Shown one piece after another: positions 2,795-18,928 of a stretch of 62,702 nucleotides of DNA. A program made the translations under genes and the position numbers. Under the pieces are notes generated by a model, which worked only from the letters and a program-made list of their open reading frames with translations, made no database searches and was not told the origin of the DNA. Within the stretch, counting starts at the first letter, position 1, and each line of letters begins with the position of its first letter. Where the stretch lies: contig JAFYDI010000109.1 in NCBI GenBank assembly GCA_017544835.1, positions 1 to 62,702 of the forward strand, read 5' to 3'. Source of the DNA: Lachnospiraceae bacterium (GTDB lineage: Bacteria > Bacillota > Clostridia > Lachnospirales > Lachnospiraceae).

Positions 2795-3430
2795 ATGAAG
2801 AATCTGATTTTTGATATTGACGGAACTTTGTGGAATACCACCGGAGTGGTGGCAGGCGCCTGGAACAAGGCTGTTCGCGAGATGGCGGTGCCTGAGCTTA
2901 CGCGGCTTAATGTGACGGCTGATATGCTTAAGAAGGAATTCGGCAAGCCCATGGACGTTATCGCAGACGATTTGTTTGGAGATATCGATGCCGGGGTTAA
3001 GGCAAGACTTCTTTCTTTGTGTTGCGAATATGAGCAGGAGGCGCTTGCGGAGTGTGAAGATGACCTTAGATATGAAGGTATGACCGAGACGCTTAAGAAG
3101 CTTTCGGAAGACCACAATCTTTTCATCGTCAGCAACTGCCAGGACGGATATATCGAGCTTGTCATTAAGAAGACGGGGCTTTCGGGTATTATCAAGGATT
3201 TTGAGTGCTTCGGTCGAACGGAACTTCAGAAGGATGAGAATATCAGGCTTGTGATGGAGCGTAATGGCTTGGCGCCGGCGGATACGGTATATATCGGCGA
3301 TACTATGGGCGATTTTGTGGCTACGCACAAGGCAGGCATTAAGTTTGTGTATGCTTCGTACGGATTCGGAGATGTTACGGAGCCGGATTACAGTATTGGG
3401 GCAATCGGAGAGCTTCTTTCTTTGGCATAA
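2795..3430 (+). CDS. HAD-superfamily phosphatase, phosphoglycolate-phosphatase-like
   Basis: The 211-residue product begins MKNLIFDIDGTLW, the HAD motif I with its two aspartates. Motif II is FIVSNCQDG, a lysine follows in ELQKDENIR, and motif IV is YIGDTMGDFVATHKAG. A variable cap domain lies between motifs I and II (about residues 16-85). This is the layout of Gph/PGP-type hydrolases that act on small phosphate esters. ATG 2795 is preferred over an in-frame GTG at 2789 because the GAGG at 2786-2789 is correctly spaced from the ATG only. It probably forms an operon with the transporter upstream. The substrate is unknown. Confidence 0.88.
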   Translation: MKNLIFDIDGTLWNTTGVVAGAWNKAVREMAVPELTRLNVTADMLKKEFGKPMDVIADDLFGDIDAGVKARLLSLCCEYEQEALAECEDDLRYEGMTETLKKLSEDHNLFIVSNCQDGYIELVIKKTGLSGIIKDFECFGRTELQKDENIRLVMERNGLAPADTVYIGDTMGDFVATHKAGIKFVYASYGFGDVTEPDYSIGAIGELLSLA

Positions 3431-5404: not shown

Positions 5405-5727
5405 CAATGCATAAAAAGAAGAATTGGCCGATTTTATCCATTGTTTTGCTCTCAACATTTTGCTAGGCAATGGATAAATTTCGGAAAAAGAAGAATTTAT
5501 GCATTGTATTATGGTATTAAATGGGACGAAATGGCTTTAAGAGAGGTGCAGAAGACTGATAACAATGCATAAAACAGCCAAAATCCTTTTTTTATCCGTT
5601 GTCACCATGAATACCGAGGAAAAAACAATGCATAAAAACCTGAAAATCGAAAATTTATCCATTGCACCCAAAAACATCTATGCGAAAACAATGGATAAAA
5701 TCCTAAAACCGACGATTTTATGCATTC
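5405..5727 (+). repeat. Array 1 of a 39-bp inverted-repeat unit (five units)
   Basis: Five units start at 5405, 5468, 5563, 5626 and 5689. Each is an 11-bp left arm (CAATGSATAAA), a 17-bp spacer and an 11-bp right arm (TTTATSCRTTG, last base C in unit 5). Unit starts are 63, 95, 63 and 63 bp apart, and 24 bp separate neighbours except for the 56-bp gap 5507-5562. Spacers and gaps show no similarity to each other, so these are not recent tandem duplications. Arms are nearly complementary but always carry the same base on both sides at the sixth position (C with C, or G with G). No gene of ordinary character occupies 5403-5820. Function unknown; no known repeat family is recognised. Confidence 0.93.
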
Positions 5728-5873: not shown

Positions 5874-5900
5874 TTAGCACTCGGACATACAGAGTGCTAA
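5874..5900 (+). promoter_or_regulatory. CIRCE operator (HrcA binding site)
   Basis: A perfect TTAGCACTC (5874-5882), 9-bp spacer, GAGTGCTAA (5892-5900). This is the exact consensus of the HrcA-bound heat-shock operator. It controls groES and groEL, which follow at 5925. Confidence 0.98.
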
Positions 5901-5924: not shown

Positions 5925-7834
<1,910 letters not shown>

Positions 7835-18669: not shown

Positions 18670-18928
18670 TAATGCATAAGTCATTGGTAATTCGCATCTT
18701 ATGCATTGGTTTTGGCTTGTCATTTTGGTACATAATGACTAAAAAACGGAAAAACGCAGATTTATGCATTGTTTTTACCAATATGTGTTCTTTTGCCGGA
18801 GAGATGCGAGGAGAAAAAAGAAATATTAATGCATAAGGGTAAAAAAAACTATATCTTATTCATCGTCCTATTTTTTTAGAACAGAATAATAATGCATAAA
18901 TGAGCCGAGAATAGAAATTTAGGCATTG
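18670..18928 (+). repeat. Array 2 of the 39-bp inverted-repeat unit (four units)
   Basis: Four units start at 18670, 18733, 18827 and 18890, with unit spacings of 63, 94 and 63 bp. Each is again 11 + 17 + 11 bp. Left arms are TAATGCATAAG, TAATGACTAAA, TAATGCATAAG and TAATGCATAAA. Right arms are CTTATGCATTG, TTTATGCATTG, CTTATTCATCG and TTTAGGCATTG. Divergent arms (18733-18743, 18855-18865) sit exactly where the grid predicts. The arm ends covary: where the left arm ends in G the right arm begins with C. Outside the array, 18587-19009 holds nothing else recognisable. The region lies between the ABC operon terminator and the promoter of the thioesterase gene. Confidence 0.9.

Follow-up and report, generated by a model that had tools for sequence, protein, structure and literature searches.

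Helix-phased arrays of inverted repeats with several arm words lie beside a family of predicted nuclease genes in Lachnospiraceae

The contig JAFYDI010000109.1 of a Lachnospiraceae bacterium (assembly GCA_017544835.1) carries, at positions 5405 to 5727, an array of five inverted-repeat units that we term A1. The window analyzed here is this entire contig (C86; 62,702 nucleotides), part of a 2.87-Mb draft genome (G000). We found that A1 belongs to a larger set of arrays that share one geometry but differ in the word carried by their arms. The units of these arrays are spaced in phase with the DNA helix, arrays adjoin many genes of a single protein family, and the arm words run with related genes. 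On balance, we favor the explanation that the arrays are helix-phased docking platforms for a cognate nuclease, and that they are dispersed and overwritten copy by copy.

A sequence-only reading had described A1 as five units, each with an 11-bp arm, a 17-bp spacer and an inverted 11-bp arm, at steps of 63, 95, 63 and 63 bp; all of these starts and distances proved correct (Table 1). When the window was searched with the unit pattern at up to three mismatches, we obtained eight matches, compared with none in each of 100 dinucleotide shuffles. The three matches outside A1 all belong to a second array, A2 (18670-18928), with steps of 63, 94 and 63 bp. Across the genome, a looser pattern (also up to three mismatches) gave 14 forward matches versus 3 for a reversed control: five in A1, four in A2, four in a third array, A3, on contig C121, and a lone match on contig C16. 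A3 has steps of 63, 94 and 63 bp, with a decayed fifth unit 62 bp further on. Matches elsewhere thus cluster at the same spacings, and do not occur at a chance rate with random spacing. The shuffles, the reversed control pattern and the gene-linkage controls described below rule out a chance origin of the arrays.

The arms are indeed inverted pairs, but the two arms of one unit differ at the variable base of the word, ATGSATAA: all five A1 units combine one ATGCAT-type and one ATGGAT-type arm. The spacers had been read as unrelated in sequence, which holds only in part, as most have a common central A-tract. Among 18 units of the ATGSATAA word, spacer positions 7 and 8 are A in 89% and 94%, respectively, and positions 6-10 contain 65 A in 90, whereas 2000 shuffles averaged 42.7 and never exceeded 55; units and shuffles alike were oriented for maximal A.

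To assess the spacing of the units, we examined 28 arrays with different words, 10 of an original 38 having been dropped as orthologous duplicates. The best step period in a scan from 7 to 16 bp was 10.6 bp, with a resultant of 0.83 that was attained by 0 of 20,000 random-offset sets (the observed value is the maximum over 10.2-10.85 bp, and the null was evaluated at 10.3, 10.5 and 10.7 bp). An earlier test on seven step classes gave a p value of 4e-4. Where steps differ between counterparts or copies, they do so by about one turn: the long step of A2 is 94 bp in G000 versus 84 bp in genome G013, a step of the array B22 is 149 bp in genome G001 versus 138 bp in G000, and copies of another word have steps of 61 versus 71 bp. 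Because the step period equals the 10.6-bp helical repeat, we conclude that the arrays act as duplex DNA, and good evidence supports their role as duplex sites for a protein. Among the roles suggested from the sequence, it is phased sites for a DNA-binding protein that these results support. A role as recombination sites is a further possibility, since some arrays look replaced whole (see below).

Alternatively, the arrays could work as single strands, that is, as RNA or single-stranded DNA hairpins, or as cruciforms; tandem RNA hairpins had been among the roles first suggested. Either strand of A1 folds far better than its shuffles (z of -8.4 and -6.1), pairing is possible across the array between units 1 and 5 and between units 2 and 4, and pairing is maintained between related units with different words. 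However, good folding on both strands is expected of any inverted repeat, and in none of the five A1 units does pairing within the unit extend to the variable base. The window contains no Rfam match at the gathering score, and a known structured RNA was rejected. A single-strand role would also leave the 10.6-bp period unexplained, and we consider it improbable.

We next asked how widely the ATGSATAA word occurs. A match at one mismatch was present in 4 of 144 genomes, namely G000, G001, G013 and G073, the last with a single match and no array. A1 and A3 have counterparts in G001 and G013, which also carry the arrays B18 and B22. In pooled between-species pairs (excluding the G001-G013 pair of A1), differences affected 26 of 506 arm sites, 60 of 394 spacer sites and 132 of 641 gap sites (Fisher p 5e-7 for arms versus spacers and 4e-15 for arms versus gaps); alignment gap columns were few inside the arrays and absent from the arms. 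The arms are thus conserved in relatives, changing less than spacers and gaps, and they are constrained both at loci with a gene and at loci without one. The proposal that arms and distances are what is maintained was upheld, except that the central A-tract of the spacers is maintained as well. In a contig scan of 84,980 species, which may omit the genome studied here, the word search gave 28 stretches: clustered units are present in 6, all from two Lachnospiraceae records, and the other 22 have at most one unit each. Two viral stretches carry single units.

The home gene of the ATGSATAA word, which encodes a protein of 275 aa, and its home array lie on contig C121, the contig of A3; A1 and A2 are solo arrays. 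A genus search for related genes gave 38 matches in 11 of 18 genomes. After four short or domain-only matches were left out, an array of at least three units lay within 900 bp of 23 of 34 genes (some gene ends being taken from search coordinates), whereas the largest value among the 408 shuffles of the flanks that were printed was 2 units (better flank only). The other 11 genes had no array of at least three units by the scan, and some had weaker arrays by eye. In the wider bacterial family, 46 of 150 genomes, all at least 90% complete, contained a match. We examined one locus in each of 30 of these 46 genomes, our own included, and 16 of the 30 adjoin an array of at least three units, with up to 15 units. 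No array of at least three units was found in 120 random 1-kb windows drawn from 12 stretches of genome G011 and the window.

In a tree of 31 proteins made by a quick method, words were shared or similar among related proteins, which did not always form one clade. One ATGSATAA gene was seen in each of three genomes; for the word TTATCSCAAT, one gene was seen in each of two genomes and two in G001; the word TCCCACCT has no gene assigned to it. Because of the gene-array linkage and of words that run with related genes, it is strongly suggested that the protein binding the arrays is the linked nuclease.

What kind of enzyme might this family be? Invariant motifs in 26 aligned members include RSK.E, PDF and EH.G, and none of the 26 had a Pfam match at an E value of 0.01. 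All 26 match the nuclease end of PDC-S68, a candidate defence protein of PADLOC (best E 5.5e-32). The conserved acidic residues, of catalytic type, occur in the order E, (P)D, E, and the predicted C-terminal fold is confident and resembles known PD-(D/E)XK members, with modest scores. By its residues and its predicted C-terminal fold, the family is therefore assigned to the PD-(D/E)XK-type nucleases. In one pair of proteins with different words, identity is 52% in the N-terminal part and 99% in the C-terminal part, and in a second such pair 77% and 98%, respectively; a TTATCSCAAT protein pair lacks this contrast (68% and 65%). Homologues at nine viral loci and on five plasmids share, as far as seen, the nuclease part of longer proteins, and an unannotated 4.2-kb phage record covers 87% of the query. 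Scans of the nine viral loci and of the phage record found no array. Separately, a common leader, TCTCGGAATCCCGTGTCGGGAATCCG, lies between promoter-like sequence and the start codon of a 256-aa gene (loci L180, L149 and L191); it may serve as an operator or a regulatory hairpin.

Counterpart loci and a unit-model search revealed the same geometry with other arm words, GCATATAAA, ACTGATAA, TTATCGCAAT, TGACTAAR, ACCGGTAAA and TTATCCCAAT, and one genome can hold several words; five single unit-model matches (L150, L153, L156, L157 and L158) proved not to be arrays. TTATCSCAAT arrays mostly have four units at steps of about 71, 51 and 71 bp, and their spacers are mirrored: in 12 copies, an A-run is present in 17 of 24 units 1 and 2, and a T-run in 21 of 24 units 3 and 4. 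G000 contains eight TTATCSCAAT arrays, one with a gene. For TGACCC, it has a home array on contig C99, further arrays on C9, C34, C87, C16 and elsewhere on C99, and a single unit on C25 (20 forward matches versus 2 for a control pattern). For TCACACCT, there is only the home array; a related TCCCACCT array on C9 (6589-6879) has five units at steps of 64, 64, 63 and 64 bp, and no gene of the nuclease family was found on that contig. Solo arrays are thus dispersed away from the genes, with about 3-11 copies per word. At one locus, a gene with its array in G000 corresponds to a solo array between shared flanks in G013.

Within a word family, the copies are scattered and are about 69-86% alike to one another; the arrays might therefore be miniature elements of another transposase, with the proximity to nuclease genes incidental. 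Linkage to a single gene family in many genera, with different words, speaks against this, as does the finding that related genes have related words; we regard this explanation as very improbable.

Three side observations concern these other arrays. TTATCSCAAT arrays and B22 arrays differ in their arm words, yet the motif GTTATGTAAAC, or a close form of it, recurs in gaps of the former and in the long gap of the latter (L032 about 350; long gaps of L148, L149, L035 and L102). A ACTGATAA array on contig C7 of G011 lies between two direct-repeat copies of about 34 bp (AGGCCACCAACCCCGTCCCCTAGGTCCACTTT; L115 about 6118-6151 and 6472-6505). In genome G004, a second array with the word GCTACGTA and a 62-bp step adjoins a ACCGGTAAA array (L154 about 3148-3240).

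Comparison of counterpart loci indicates how arrays may turn over. In many G001 arrays the word is TTATCGCAAT, whereas sister loci have TTATCCCAAT. Outside the arms, three G001 arrays with a changed word are 0.71, 0.66 and 0.70 alike to their G013 counterparts, while two unchanged arrays are 0.88 and 0.96 alike. The flanks are 92-97% alike at four of these five loci; those of the C7 home locus, gene included, are 80% alike. At fixed loci, array bodies thus differ more than flanks. Genome-wide switching of the arm word in situ was rejected. The other word persists in 2 of the 11 G001 arrays, the variable base is exclusively C or exclusively G in 28 of 29 arrays (a single T or A apart), and changed arrays are barely closer to their orthologue than to other copies. 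Because of this weak likeness to the orthologue, we prefer replacement of arrays over switching in situ, and we read the sequences as whole-array replacement in at least two cases. Some arm changes in the A1 array of G001 appear to have arisen in situ, and at B22, where the word differs between G000 and G001, some gap sequence is common to both. The G000 array at B22 (L102, contig C61) reads TGACTAAR, whereas its counterparts in G001 and G013 read ATGSATAA; a gene with the word TGACTAAR was seen in G011, G013 and G016, and the related G000 gene has a TGACCC array.

We propose that cutting spreads the arrays, which would fit both their dispersal and their replacement. Two observations weigh against replacement: one changed array (C18 of G001, the one 0.66 alike to its G013 counterpart) is 0.77 alike to its G000 orthologue, ranking 2 of 28, and one unchanged pair (C14 of G001 and C11 of G000) is only 0.66 alike. 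No clean insertion backs the proposal of spread by cutting: the two loci aligned, which bear an array in G001 but lack one in G000 and G013, both show larger rearrangements, and no target-site duplication was seen.

These observations bear on a rival explanation, in which the same arrays and protein serve the host, in transcription control, DNA architecture or defence, and ordinary recombination rather than the nuclease spreads the copies. It is favored by the missing clean insertions (two loci aligned), by the constraint on arms at solo loci retained over species, by home arrays that often lie directly upstream of the gene, as an operator would, and by a nuclease domain similar to portions of candidate defence proteins. 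In contrast, array bodies at fixed loci appear replaced, some home arrays (TTATCSCAAT) lie downstream of the gene, and the solo arrays listed have no common kind of neighbor gene. We judge a host-serving role unlikely, but a good deal less so than the single-strand and miniature-element explanations.

Under the docking-platform explanation that we favor, a dimer would read the two inverted arms of one unit and would bend or contact the A-tract that separates them. Because the units lie whole turns apart, dimers on successive units may align on one face of the helix. The variable N-terminal half of the protein would set the arm word, and the conserved C-terminal half would be the nuclease, which would drive the spread and overwriting of arrays, array to array. 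Each word would then have a small population of one or two genes and several solo arrays.

In two reports (PMC3116915, PMC8049555), REPINs are described as inverted pairs of short repeats in intergenic DNA, with several populations per genome, each tied to a DNA-processing enzyme gene beside one copy and with solo copies dispersed. The arrays described here are likewise intergenic inverted doublets with solo copies dispersed away from the gene. However, RAYTs are tyrosine (Y1/HUH) transposases, whereas the protein linked to the arrays has an end of PD-(D/E)XK type and matches no Pfam family; each array carries several dimer-like units on a helical grid; and there are about 3-11 copies per word, compared with tens to hundreds for REPINs. 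By analogy, the nuclease-array system would resemble REPIN/RAYT in its logic, with an unrelated enzyme, and is not a member.

The likeness to PDC-S68 is confined to its C-terminal nuclease domain: the match is limited to about model positions 1080-1250, and full-length identity was therefore rejected. The PDC-S68 models comprise 1202-1273 residues, whereas the proteins described here have mostly about 250-300, another N-terminal half and an array. We also count the EDxHD/Vsr-like homing endonuclease I-Bth0305I, Bax1, Vsr and TnsA among the closest known systems. Partition centromeres such as sopC of plasmid F are built of units in tandem, in each of which a dimer binds a short inverted repeat; unlike these, the arrays have many dispersed chromosomal copies and a nuclease-like gene. 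A CRISPR array was rejected on its repeats, since the arms are inverted in pairs and the spacers have a common A-tract; Cas genes were not searched for. A limited search of the open-access literature, which left most subscription papers uncovered, found no published counterpart.

Table 1. Units of arrays A1 and A2 in the window.
Unit	Coordinates	Strand	Step (bp)	Remarks
A1 unit 1	5405..5443	.		11-bp arm + 17-bp spacer + inverted 11-bp arm
A1 unit 2	5468..5506	.	63	
A1 unit 3	5563..5601	.	95	one mismatch
A1 unit 4	5626..5664	.	63	
A1 unit 5	5689..5727	.	63	one mismatch
A2 unit 1	18670..18708	.		
A2 unit 2	18733..18771	.	63	left arm = ATGACTAAA
A2 unit 3	18827..18865	.	94	picked up by looser pattern
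A2 unit 4	18890..18928	.	63	

With gene names assigned by eye, A1 is flanked by a transporter-like gene and groES, and A2 by an ABC-transporter-like gene and a thioesterase-like gene. Between A1 and groES (5874-5900) lies an inverted repeat, TTAGCACTC, 9 bp, GAGTGCTAA, which we take to be CIRCE-like.

Our results lead us to suggest, tentatively and with less assurance than the docking-platform explanation itself, that Lachnospiraceae genomes hold several mutually orthogonal nuclease-array pairs, each with its own word of about 7-11 bp displayed as helix-phased dimer sites. Such pairs would combine a fast-evolving N-terminal reader with a conserved cutter, whose cutting would drive homing-like overwriting between arrays, and they would form a new class of system. 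If so, a large family of gut and rumen bacteria would hold an unnamed nuclease family together with easily recognized arrays, often with several specificities per genome. The pairs would supply natural combinations of protein and word for deciphering a recognition code, and they would parallel REPIN/RAYT populations independently, with an enzyme unrelated to RAYTs. They would also allow a clear test of nuclease-site co-evolution and show how selection for helical phase appears in raw sequence.
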